Of a stretch of 5,610 nt of DNA, positions 1,254-5,610 are shown one piece after another. This DNA is from Thiomonas sp. (GTDB lineage Bacteria; Pseudomonadota; Gammaproteobacteria; Burkholderiales; Burkholderiaceae_C): the NCBI GenBank assembly GCA_028706735.1, contig JAQTVS010000206.1:1-5610 (forward strand), written 5' to 3'. Each line of letters starts with the position of its first letter. The first letter of the stretch is position 1. The notes beneath the pieces are model-generated. The model was not told the origin of the DNA. It worked only from the letters and a program-made list of their open reading frames with translations, and ran no database searches. A program made the position numbers and the translations under genes.

Positions 1254-1281
1254 GGAACTTTTCGCGTTTAGCACTCTCTAT
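1254..1281 (+). promoter_or_regulatory. Candidate SigmaE (RpoE, ECF-type) promoter of rpoH
   Basis: GGAACTT (1254-1260) is an exact match to the -35 element of SigmaE promoters. After GAACTT and a 16-base spacer comes TCTAT (1277-1281), a partial match to the -10 element TCTGA. In E. coli, promoter P3 of rpoH is SigmaE-dependent and, as I recall, has the same -35 core and spacing. Transcription would start near 1287-1289, inside the right arm of the CIRCE element, giving a leader of about 35 bases. A weaker alternative is a Sigma70-like pair TTAGCA (1268-1273) / TAATAT (1292-1297, with an upstream TG) that also overlaps CIRCE. Confidence 0.55.
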
Positions 1282-1294
1282 CCGTGAGTGCTAA
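1268..1294 (+). promoter_or_regulatory. CIRCE operator (HrcA binding site) upstream of rpoH
   Basis: The sequence is TTAGCACTC, nine bases, then GAGTGCTAA, an exact match to the CIRCE consensus with the canonical 9-bp spacer. CIRCE is the binding site of the repressor HrcA, which normally controls groESL or dnaK and is kept active by GroEL. Here it ends 29 bp before the rpoH start codon and overlaps both the predicted -10 element and the predicted transcription start, so HrcA binding should block rpoH transcription. No hrcA gene is visible in the window. Confidence 0.95.
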
Positions 1295-2976: not shown

Positions 2977-5052
2977 TCAGCGCCAGCCGCGCACGGCCTG
3001 CCGCAGTGCGGCCCAGTCAGCGCGTCTGCGGCGCGCATCTCGCTCGGGGGCGTAGCGCCAGCGTTCGAGTTGCAGCAAAAGGATGATGGCGGACTTGGCG
3101 GATTGGGGCGAGAGCGTGCTGGCGTCCGGGCGGGCGGTGTGGATGCGGCCCGCCAGGGCGCGCGGCGGGGTGGAGTCGGCGCTGTCGATGCCGGCCTGCT
3201 CCAACTTTTGGCGCAGCAGGGCGTAGGTCTGCGTCCAGGGGTCGCGCTTGCGGCGCTCCAGAGCCAATAAGGCGCCGAGGATGGCGGTGGCCGCCAGCAG
3301 GGCGGCAATGGCCAGGGCGGCGAGGGTGGCCATGTCGGGCTGCTGCAGGCCGAGTTTGCGCAGCAGGTCTTGCTGGCTGTTGCTGCCGTAGTTCAGCACC
3401 CATTGGTTCCAGGTGTTGTTCAGCGCGTCCCAGCGGTTGCGCAGTTGCAGCAGCAGGGCGGCGTCGCGCGGGCCGAGCGCGGCCATGCCCAGCAGCGGTT
3501 CGCGCGATGCCAGGGTGGCGCCGCTGCGGTCGACGCGTGCGGGATCGACTGCGGACGTGGGGTCTGCGCGCACCCAGCCGCGCCCGGTCAGCCAGTACTC
3601 GGCCCAGGCGTGGGCGTCGCTCTGGCGCACCACCCAGGTGTTGTCCACCGGGTTGAAGCGCCCGCCCTGATAGCCGGTGACGATGCGCGCGGGAATGCCC
3701 GCAGCCCGCATCACGACAACGAAGGCCTGTGCATAGTGTTCGCAGAAACCGGCGCGGCGGTCGAACAGAAATTCGTCGATCCCGTCGCGCCTGCCGTAGG
3801 CGCCGGGGTTGAGGGTGTAGCGGAAGGGCTGCTTGCGAAACATCTGCAGCAAGGCTTGGGCAATGAAGCTGCCGTTCTGCCCGGCGGCTCTGGCCTGCGC
3901 GGCGAGCTGCTTGCCCAGCGCCACGCTGCGCGGGTCGAACCCGGCGGGCAGGGCTTCGTCGGCGCGCAGGGCGGGGGTGAACTGCGCGGGGCCGTAGCGG
4001 AACTGGGGCGAGGATTCGACGGTGTAGCGCGCGAGATGGTCGAGCGGCCGCCCGGTGACGAGTTGCAGGTCGGGCAACCACTGCACCATGTATCCCTCGA
4101 TCTTGGGCGCGGCAACCGGGGCGTCGAGGGCGAAGACGAAGGTCTGCTGCGTGGGCTGCAGGGTGACGGTGTAGCGCACGGGCTGGCCGCTCAAGTGCAG
4201 ATCGGCGGGCGGGGTGAGGGTGGCGCGGTCGCGCTGGTGTGGATCGGGCAGCCACACGCCGTTGTCGAACACGCTCAGCACGGGGCCGCGCCAGTAGAGC
4301 AGCCGGTCGGGCGGGCGCGGGCCGTCGAACACCACGCGGAAGGCCACTGAATCGTCGCGCGCGAGTTCGGCAATCTGCCCTGGCGACATGCTGGCCGAGA
4401 GCCCGGTGATGGCCTGTGCGCTGCTTTGCGGCAGCGCCCACAGCGGCGCGCTGATGCGTGGGAACACCACGAACAGCGCAATCATCGCCGGGGCGCCCAG
4501 CGCCATCATTTTCAGCGCGGTCAACAGCGACTGCCGCAGCGGCGGGTGTCCGGCGGGCAGGTTGGCGTTGACCAGCGCGGCCAGCATGCCCCAGGTCGCC
4601 AGCACCATGACGAGCGCGGTGCCCAGCGACTGCGAGAACAGGAAGTTGGCGGCAATGGTGAAAAAACCGAGAAAGAACAGCACATGCGCATCGCGCCGGG
4701 AGCGCATCTCCAGGGTTTTGAGGCCGAGCAGCACGCACAGCAGGGCGACACCGGCGTCGCGTCCGAGCACGGTATGGAACTCCCACAAGGTGAGTGCGGC
4801 GGAGGCGGACAGGATGAGCGCCAGCACCCAGCGGCCGGGCAGAGGCGCGCCGCGCCAGGCCAGCACTGCGCGCCAGGCCAGCAACGCCAGCACCAGGGCG
4901 CTGGTCCACAACGGCAGGTGGAGGAACAGTGGCAGCATGAGCAGCAACGACACCGCGAGCAGAAACAGGGTGTCGCGCGCGTCGCGCGGCAGGGCGCCGA
5001 TGCCGTGGGACCAGCGGGCGAACAGCGCGCCGGGTGCGGAAGCCGCACTCAT
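2977..5052 (-). CDS. tgpA: TgpA-like membrane transglutaminase (DUF3488 - transglutaminase core - DUF4129)
   Basis: The protein has 691 residues. The N-terminal half-domain (DUF3488) has several membrane helices between about residues 26 and 197. A periplasmic part follows, with the transglutaminase core at about 405-500: Cys437 in R-A-G-F-C-E-H-Y, His481 in S-D-A-H-A-W-A-E-Y-W, and Asp497 in R-A-D-P-T. The spacing Cys-44-His-16-Asp equals that of the catalytic triad I recall for Pseudomonas aeruginosa TgpA, so the enzyme should be active. A last membrane helix (about 575-598) leads to a cytoplasmic tail resembling DUF4129 (about 605-690). Longer in-frame starts up to 5265 exist, but they lie inside the DUF58 gene and encode Arg-rich sequence unlike the family. 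The ATG at 5052 overlaps the DUF58 stop as ATGA, pointing to translational coupling. P. aeruginosa tgpA is reported to be essential; its physiological substrate is not known, though an envelope role is assumed. Confidence 0.93.
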   Translation of the reverse strand: MSAASAPGALFARWSHGIGALPRDARDTLFLLAVSLLLMLPLFLHLPLWTSALVLALLAWRAVLAWRGAPLPGRWVLALILSASAALTLWEFHTVLGRDAGVALLCVLLGLKTLEMRSRRDAHVLFFLGFFTIAANFLFSQSLGTALVMVLATWGMLAALVNANLPAGHPPLRQSLLTALKMMALGAPAMIALFVVFPRISAPLWALPQSSAQAITGLSASMSPGQIAELARDDSVAFRVVFDGPRPPDRLLYWRGPVLSVFDNGVWLPDPHQRDRATLTPPADLHLSGQPVRYTVTLQPTQQTFVFALDAPVAAPKIEGYMVQWLPDLQLVTGRPLDHLARYTVESSPQFRYGPAQFTPALRADEALPAGFDPRSVALGKQLAAQARAAGQNGSFIAQALLQMFRKQPFRYTLNPGAYGRRDGIDEFLFDRRAGFCEHYAQAFVVVMRAAGIPARIVTGYQGGRFNPVDNTWVVRQSDAHAWAEYWLTGRGWVRADPTSAVDPARVDRSGATLASREPLLGMAALGPRDAALLLQLRNRWDALNNTWNQWVLNYGSNSQQDLLRKLGLQQPDMATLAALAIAALLAATAILGALLALERRKRDPWTQTYALLRQKLEQAGIDSADSTPPRALAGRIHTARPDASTLSPQSAKSAIILLLQLERWRYAPERDARRRRADWAALRQAVRGWR
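4851..4883 (-). repeat. In-frame 18-bp tandem repeat inside tgpA
   Basis: A 15-base sequence, CGCGCCAGGCCAGCA, occurs at 4851-4865 and again at 4869-4883, with a period of 18 bp (six codons). In the protein it gives two L-A-W-R units at residues 58-67, at the edge of the second or third membrane helix. It looks like a small slippage duplication that preserved the frame. Confidence 0.6.
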
Positions 5053-5610
5053 GCCCTGCCCGCCCGCAAGGGGCCGGGATGCAGCGCCAGCAAGCGCAGA
5101 CACTGCATGCGGTGCGCCGCGCCGGTGGCAGGCGCGATGTTTTGCGTGCCGAGCTTCAGGCCATAGGGCAGACCGGCGTGATCGGCGGCCAGCACCCAGG
5201 CGCACAGGCGGGAAAGCCGCGCCTCGGTGTCGAGCGCAGCGGGCAGGGCGGAAAAATCGAGCCACAACTCGGCCTGCGCCTGCGGCTGGGCGGTGTCGCG
5301 GCTGACGAGTTCGTCACTGCGCGCGAACTTTTTCCACAGCACATGGCGGGACGAGTCGCCGCTGCGATAGGGGCGCACGCCTTCGGTTTCGCTGCCGCCG
5401 CGCGCCAGCGCGGGGCCGCTGCCGGGTGCGGGCTGGGCAGGGGGCAGCGGCGGGGAGGGTTGTTCCACTGCGGGCAGCACGAGCAGGTCGCCCTGCGGTC
5501 TCCAGCGGCTCCAGGCGGTCCAGACGCCCAGCGGGTAGTTGCTCTCCACCGTGAGCAGAGGCCAGGACAGTAGGCCGCGCTGGATGGGAGTCCAGCTCAG
5601 GGTGAGCAGG
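5049..5610 (-). CDS. DUF58-domain protein, C-terminal part (runs off the right edge)
   Basis: The last 186 residues are visible. The DUF58 signature is clear: an R-G-x-L...S-x-Y-P-L-G-V-W-T-A-W segment (visible residues 11-33) matching the family's 'S-x-x-P-F-G-L' motif, a Pro-rich linker (50-68), then E76-G-V-R-P-Y-R-S-G-D85 and R-H-V-L-W-K-K-F-A-R (88-97), the family's 'E...R.Y..GD..R.I.WK..AR' motif. DUF58 proteins are VWA-related and are almost always encoded next to a MoxR-type AAA+ ATPase and a TgpA-like transglutaminase; the function is unclear, with chaperone-like or envelope roles proposed. The start, any N-terminal membrane helices and the expected moxR gene lie beyond the window. 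A GTG at 5549 is in frame, but homologous sequence continues upstream of it, so it is not the true start. Its stop overlaps the tgpA start by 4 bp. Confidence 0.9.
   Translation of the reverse strand, partial: LLTLSWTPIQRGLLSWPLLTVESNYPLGVWTAWSRWRPQGDLLVLPAVEQPSPPLPPAQPAPGSGPALARGGSETEGVRPYRSGDSSRHVLWKKFARSDELVSRDTAQPQAQAELWLDFSALPAALDTEARLSRLCAWVLAADHAGLPYGLKLGTQNIAPATGAAHRMQCLRLLALHPGPLRAGRA

Follow-up and report, generated by a model that had tools for sequence, protein, structure and literature searches.

A predicted HrcA operator at rpoH that shares bases with a sigma70-type -10 element and overlaps a SigmaE-type promoter

The window, by which we mean the whole 5,610-nucleotide stretch of Thiomonas sp. 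DNA analysed here, probably carries at positions 1254-1297 a control region of rpoH in which a CIRCE element, the predicted operator of the repressor HrcA, shares bases with a sigma70-type -10 element and overlaps a SigmaE-type promoter. Because the operator is shared with one promoter and overlaps the other, bound HrcA is predicted to block both. Such arrangements of CIRCE and promoter recur before rpoH in more than 200 related bacterial genomes.

All elements of the region lie on the forward strand. The CIRCE (1268-1294) is perfect, reading TTAGCACTC-N9-GAGTGCTAA with 0 mismatches, with its left arm at 1268-1276, its spacer at 1277-1285 and its right arm at 1286-1294; even with 3 mismatches allowed the window contains no second match, and 200 shuffles gave 0. 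An exact match to the SigmaE-type -35 element GGAACTT is found at 1254-1260 and, after a spacing of 16 bases (1261-1276), TCTAT (1277-1281), a SigmaE-type -10 element that departs from consensus at its fifth base, opens the 9-bp CIRCE spacer. A preliminary description of this DNA had placed a perfect CIRCE, GGAACTT and, within the spacer, TCTAT 16 bases further on before rpoH, and its letters and coordinates are confirmed. The end of the right arm supplies TGC-TAA to a sequence, TGC-TAATAT (1289-1297), that resembles an extended -10 of the sigma70 type. SigmaE promoters start some 5-7 bases past the -10, which would put the predicted SigmaE start, counted from TCTAT, at 1286-1288 and the CIRCE at about -19 to +8; the corresponding distance of about 7 bases for sigma70, counted from TAATAT, predicts a start at 1303-1305. 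A likely ribosome-binding site, AGGAG (1309-1313), precedes rpoH itself (1324-2232), which begins 29 bases after the CIRCE and encodes the heat-shock sigma factor Sigma32 (302 residues; TIGR02392, 399.8 bits against a cut-off of 323.1; Pfam Sigma70 regions 1.2, 2 and 4 matched).

Candidate promoter elements at the predicted rpoH operator

Conservation was assessed in two sets of rpoH loci. Set 1 comprises 110 loci, 30 of them from 40 genomes (38 with an rpoH match, of which 8 are not represented among the 30 loci) and 80 that are the best of 589 confirmed loci, for which reason the set over-represents near relatives. Set 2 was taken from 100 genomes across the order, 98 of which have an rpoH match, at 99 places; one of these is the window itself, and the other 98 loci consist of 91 new ones and 7 also present in set 1. 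Pooled, the two sets hold 201 rpoH loci, 189 with a CIRCE, or 188 once one duplicate is dropped, and since many of the loci come from close relatives these counts are not counts of independent events.

The third base past the CIRCE is T in 187 of the 188 loci (13 of 13 in the window's genus) and the base preceding it is A in 170, the right arm and trailing bases together reading TGC-TAANAT at rpoH CIRCEs. Judged against the familiar consensus, this is likely a sigma70-type extended -10. In the window TAATAT matches TATAAT at 4 of 6 positions and was not called by a consensus promoter scan; the only -35-like word is TTAGCA, within the left arm of the CIRCE at a distance of 18 bases, and an extended -10 makes a TTGACA-like -35 optional. 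The same T follows the CIRCE at 2 of 29 groESL loci (30 were compared, and in one the start was not located) and at 0 of 10 groESL loci of the genus. Extended HrcA contacts were considered as the cause of the invariant T and rejected, since conservation is lacking at the corresponding left-hand positions (-2 and -3), which makes an extended HrcA site unlikely, and since groESL CIRCEs are poor in this T. A Sigma32 promoter, through which rpoH would regulate itself, was likewise rejected, with a Sigma32-type box within 120 bases at 2 of 188 rpoH CIRCEs versus 23 of 29 near groESL CIRCEs.

Within the genus, all 13 genomes have a perfect CIRCE before rpoH, GGAACT(T/A) starting 14 bases before it (GGAACTT in 10, GGAACTA in 3) and a spacer that opens TCT. 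Upstream positions -45 to -16 are all below 75% conservation, and positions 4-9 of the spacer are variable. An A is usual at the fifth base of the SigmaE -10 consensus; the genus boxes read TCTAC (8), TCTAT (3), TCTTA (1) and TCTCA (1), with A at that place in 2 of 13 and T in the window, and the strict pattern GGAACTT-N15..17-TCTRA has no match in the window. The GGAAC/TCT pair, being present in 13 of 13 genomes, is thus conserved throughout the genus, although its -10 is weak. As for the SigmaE-type promoter of the preliminary description, its exact GGAACTT and the TC at N16 stand, TCTAT is off consensus in lacking the fifth-base A, and a comparison of the regions upstream of rpoH finds the pair, degenerate -10 included, kept throughout the genus. 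A genome-wide search of the window's own genome for GGAACTT-N15..17-TCNNA gave no enrichment (4 matches versus 10 for the reversed pattern), and so yielded no SigmaE consensus for this genome.

Across Burkholderiales, the boxes occupy a small number of fixed registers. With offsets given relative to the CIRCE start and counted from the base preceding GAAC, this word peaks among the 188 CIRCE-bearing loci at -31 (14 loci), -28 (5), -17 (19), -16 (34), -14 (17) and -12 (36), and to a lesser extent behind the CIRCE, at +34 (7) and +70 (7), against a background between -60 and -21 that averages 1.3 per offset and a maximum of 8 for the control word CAAG. The registers were selected after the data had been seen, and the controls were the per-offset background, the reversed word and motif, shuffles and a spacing histogram. 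In register -12 the T and C of the -10 are each found at N16 in 34 of 36 loci and the A in 35 of 36, compared with 40, 37 and 31 of 152 other loci at the same places. The corresponding counts of T, C and A are 11, 11 and 10 of 11 in register -31 and 5 of 5 each in register -28, and a looser box in registers +32 to +34 (11 loci) has 8 of 11 each. In the window's register, -14, T and C are present in 17 of 17 loci and A in 5 of 17, about as often as elsewhere (42/171). At -16 and -17 the CIRCE itself contributes the TC, as the end of its left arm, which leaves the A as the one informative base; an A completes TCnnA in 31 of 34 loci at -16 and in 16 of 19 at -17, versus 18 of 135 elsewhere. Setting these two registers apart, TCnnA follows at N16 in 55 of 87 cases and at N17 in 4, and each of the remaining spacings between 8 and 27 accounts for 0-2. 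The strict form GGAACnn-N16-TCnnA is found near the CIRCE in 50 of 108 set-1 loci, where shuffles gave 0.23 on average and the reversed motif gave 1. These counts support a reading in which GGAAC and TCnnA behave as a two-part promoter, its N16 spacing tied to the CIRCE.

Among the 44 order-sample families with an rpoH CIRCE, register -16 occurs in 22 and -17 in 14; in the register of most families the TC of the -10 is the end of the left arm. In a tree of RpoH from the 110 set-1 loci the registers group by clade, with 25 label changes compared with 64.1 in shuffles (one label is wrong, L041, a duplicate of L017, being marked as lacking a CIRCE). Register -14 is confined to the window's genus and -28 to Cupriavidus, each needing one change; -12 needs 11, and boxes behind the CIRCE need 5. 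Several clades set the SigmaE-type box before or behind the CIRCE rather than across it, as in Rubrivivax/Roseateles-type loci (L037, L057, L074, L087, L105 and kin), where 32-34 bases separate it from the upstream CIRCE start, and a SigmaE promoter so placed may escape HrcA. In 55 of the 188 CIRCE-bearing loci none of the recognised registers is occupied by GAAC, some of these loci carrying GGAAACTT-like boxes. GGAACTT and CIRCE are therefore not the inseparable unit that had been envisaged, as relatives keep the operator without GAAC and several clades shift the box.

The most serious rival to the two-promoter reading is that the CIRCE governs the sigma70-type promoter alone and that GGAACTT/TCTAT is not a working promoter in this genome. 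We consider this unlikely, though it would readily account for the 55 loci without a GAAC box, for the missing A and absent genome-wide enrichment of the SigmaE motif in the window's genome, and for TAANAT, its last T above all, being the best conserved element outside the arms. It fits poorly with GGAACT(T/A) being kept in 13 of 13 genus genomes beside upstream positions that all fall below 75%, with the invariant TCT of the genus spacer, and with the N16 boxes of other clades, which move in lockstep. It also fits poorly with E. coli K-12, where a box of the same form, TGAACTT-N16-TCTGA, lies 121 bases before rpoH; this we take to be promoter P3, read by SigmaE.

A second rival keeps the two-part box and assigns it not to RpoE but to a different ECF sigma factor that recognises a GGAAC -35. 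An AAC-type -35 is common to many ECF sigma factors, and the RpoE model matches six more regions of the window's own genome below cut-off, one of which is a piece of rpoE at a contig end. This genome also has rpoE itself above cut-off (245.8 bits versus 236.15), followed by a putative rseA/rseB-like pair, and the box at E. coli rpoH, presumably a SigmaE promoter, has TCnnA at N16 too, so that we regard a different sigma factor as improbable, and clearly more so than the first rival. The rpoE gene of the window's genome is split across two contig ends (L114 and L115) whose sequences overlap.

The predicted operator and its repressor

HrcA/CIRCE operators are known at groESL and at hrcA-grpE-dnaKJ. 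At rpoH, a CIRCE is found in 108 of the 110 set-1 loci, with perfect arms in 91 of the 108; the exceptions are L081, which has 9 upstream bases only, and L102, which has no CIRCE within 400 bases. In set 2, where up to 4 mismatches were allowed, 88 of 98 loci have one, two of them at 4 mismatches. The presence of hrcA, above cut-off in 90 of the 100 order-sample genomes, agrees with that of the rpoH CIRCE at all 98 scored loci, the two being kept together in 88 of 88 cases and lost together in 10 of 10. The ten genomes without an intact hrcA, among them one (G107) with a broken 29-bit match, are spread over six families, and in two of these (f4 and f35) sister genomes retain both hrcA and the CIRCE. 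Two further genomes (G053 and G068) have hrcA but gave no rpoH match above the search threshold, and hence fall outside the 98 scored loci; in G053 a search allowing up to 2 mismatches found no CIRCE either. The one clear exception, outside the order sample, is Allofranklinella (L102), whose genome has hrcA and an rpoH without a CIRCE within 400 bases. The Allofranklinella rpoH retains GGAACTT.

At one of the hrcA-less loci (L206) the best CIRCE has decayed to 5 mismatches, with GGAACTT-N16-TCATA and TGA-TAAAAT intact; a locus of the same genus (L220) has hrcA and a perfect CIRCE. The pattern used to look for SigmaE-type boxes matched at none of the other nine hrcA-less rpoH loci, so that outside L206 box and operator were lost together. 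The co-loss with hrcA supports the prediction that the CIRCE at rpoH acts as an HrcA operator. That it is instead a relic, or only a transcribed stem-loop, is highly improbable and the weakest of the three rivals: L102 has hrcA without a CIRCE, but the arms are perfect in most set-1 loci, the co-loss with hrcA is exact, and both predicted starts lie inside or behind the CIRCE, so that transcripts beginning there would lack part of the stem-loop.

The window's own genome encodes hrcA (C171; 303.3 bits versus a cut-off of 197.2; Pfam HrcA and HrcA_DNA-bdg) and has 2 CIRCEs at up to 3 mismatches, one at rpoH and the other at groESL. As at rpoH, the groESL CIRCE (L002, 1501-1527) stands at a promoter and the same repressor is expected to bind it; unlike the rpoH CIRCE, it lies directly behind a Sigma32-type promoter, CTTGAAA-N13-CCCTAT, and has no trailing NAT. 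The groESL CIRCEs of the genus (L002, L137-L146) likewise stand directly behind a promoter of Sigma32 type; their spacers begin GTTG in 10 of 10 loci, and the CIRCE is followed by CA or CG.

Wider distribution and a putative regulatory circuit

A class-wide query, GAACN{7,12}YTRGCACTCN9GAGTGCTANNNT, which is free of rpoH coding letters, recovers the composite element in 136 of 370 genomes, all but three of which (133) belong to other orders, and the reversed pattern has 0 matches; the arrangement is thus no peculiarity of this genome. The matches fall at 137 places, of which 130 were examined, three of these from the window's own order. The examined places lie at rpoH in 128 cases, 126 with rpoH correctly directed within 600 bases and two (L360 and L371) in which the RpoH alignment starts inside the element; behind the composite sites of L354 (G190) and L389 (G400) no rpoH was found. 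L389 is the second composite site of its genome, the other being at rpoH. Where GAAC and CIRCE stand 11 or 12 bases apart, as they do at 117 out-of-order rpoH loci, A occupies spacer position 3 in 109, and at the other spacer positions no base exceeds 80 of 117. The final T of the element is demanded by the query and so is no evidence; the base preceding it, which the query leaves free, is A in 94 of 123 cases.

E. coli P3 has the same two boxes and the same N16 spacing as the CIRCE-bearing relatives. Unlike them, it has no CIRCE, the best 27-mer in the 451 K-12 bases examined having 7 mismatches, and a control search for hrcA in E. coli was without match. One scenario for the whole distribution, to which we give even chances as a joint proposition, is that a shared-letter rpoH switch is ancestral in the Gammaproteobacteria (in the sense of GTDB, which includes the former Betaproteobacteria). 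In this ancestral switch the left arm would have ended in two bases that double as the TC of the SigmaE -10, and the right arm in three that double as the TAA of the sigma70 -10, and by virtue of these shared letters neither polymerase could bypass the repressor. E. coli P3 would then be a remnant left after the loss of HrcA, and in clades such as the window's genus, Comamonadaceae, Burkholderia and Rubrivivax the SigmaE promoter would later have shifted in fixed steps, altering whether HrcA can gate it.

In Bacillus subtilis, GroEL stabilises HrcA when free. If the same holds here, GroEL-stabilised HrcA would cover both -10 regions and hold rpoH down. Occupation of GroEL by unfolded protein would release HrcA and bring back basal sigma70 transcription of rpoH, to which SigmaE would contribute when envelope stress occurs in addition. 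Sigma32 would then drive groESL, whose own CIRCE sits behind a Sigma32-type promoter and, with a CIRCE at both rpoH and groESL, the feedback from GroEL would act on each of the two genes. Free chaperone is thus predicted to shut off the supply of Sigma32 and envelope damage to switch it on. The preliminary description had HrcA and SigmaE meeting at one promoter, an idea supported as far as the co-loss and the N16 spacing go, and in need of amendment in that conservation is strongest at a second promoter's -10, the sigma70-type one.

In the textbook account of Sigma32 control in E. coli, chaperones act on the finished protein. If the module works as read here, many Proteobacteria would sense the state of their chaperones at the rpoH promoter, through HrcA, and would combine envelope and cytoplasmic stress on about 45 bp. 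It would also give E. coli P3 a simple origin and explain the near-absence of drift around the rpoH CIRCE, whose bases would be serving three proteins. Clades that differ in the register between promoter and operator offer natural test cases for the gating of SigmaE by HrcA.

Parts of this picture are known already. A CIRCE upstream of rpoH was reported in the deltaproteobacterium Geobacter sulfurreducens in 2004, with the same operator sequence and repressor family (PMC545781); the accessible portion of that report, which refers to Permina and Gelfand 2003 for beta-, gamma- and epsilon-proteobacteria, gives the site alone, in contrast to the SigmaE box, arm-made -10, spacing and co-loss analysed here. 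Two Neisseria genomes are listed without HrcA (PMC3135505), the rpoH of Cupriavidus metallidurans is given several starts and counted among genes that have secondary ones (PMC7563307), which is in keeping with two promoters, and the Cupriavidus rpoH upstream region drives lacZ (PMC13192273). The combined element was not found in the portions consulted of PMC1978210, PMC3989490 and PMC10696704, nor is it named in the open-access literature searched. With CIRCE at rpoH known from Geobacter and SigmaE at rpoH from E. coli, it is the shared-letter architecture of which no description was found in that literature.

Other features of the window

The promoter scan called TTGACG-N18-AAGAAT at 1132-1161, a sigma70-like sequence at the start of the divergent gene that may be a second, upstream promoter of rpoH. 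The letters around it are partly common to four relatives (L007, L008, L009 and L014), TTGACG itself being found in L014 alone, and the other correctly oriented loci of the genus do not show it; three loci (L010, L011 and L013) stand in the wrong orientation in the upstream alignment. A perfect 14-bp palindrome, TGATTGCGCAATCA, lies at 1171-1184 between rpoH and the divergent gene and is absent from L014.

The other reading frames noted are on the reverse strand. The divergent unit adjoining rpoH consists of a 124-residue protein without a Pfam match (758-1132) and an outer membrane efflux protein (3-677; PF02321, 29.4 bits). Convergent with rpoH is a 69-residue frame (2335-2544) with a signal-peptide-like start and the C-terminus KAFVDQCMHGG, an ending also encoded beside rpoH in L010 and L011. 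Between the ends of rpoH and this frame, at about 2250-2285, is a stem-loop flanked by runs of A and T, likely a two-way terminator, which the promoter scan of the window did not list. Beyond it are a TgpA-type transglutaminase (2980-5052; PF11992, 260.2 bits, and PF01841, 87 bits) and a DUF58-like frame (5052-5549) that scores just below the Pfam cut-off (22.1 versus 23.4).
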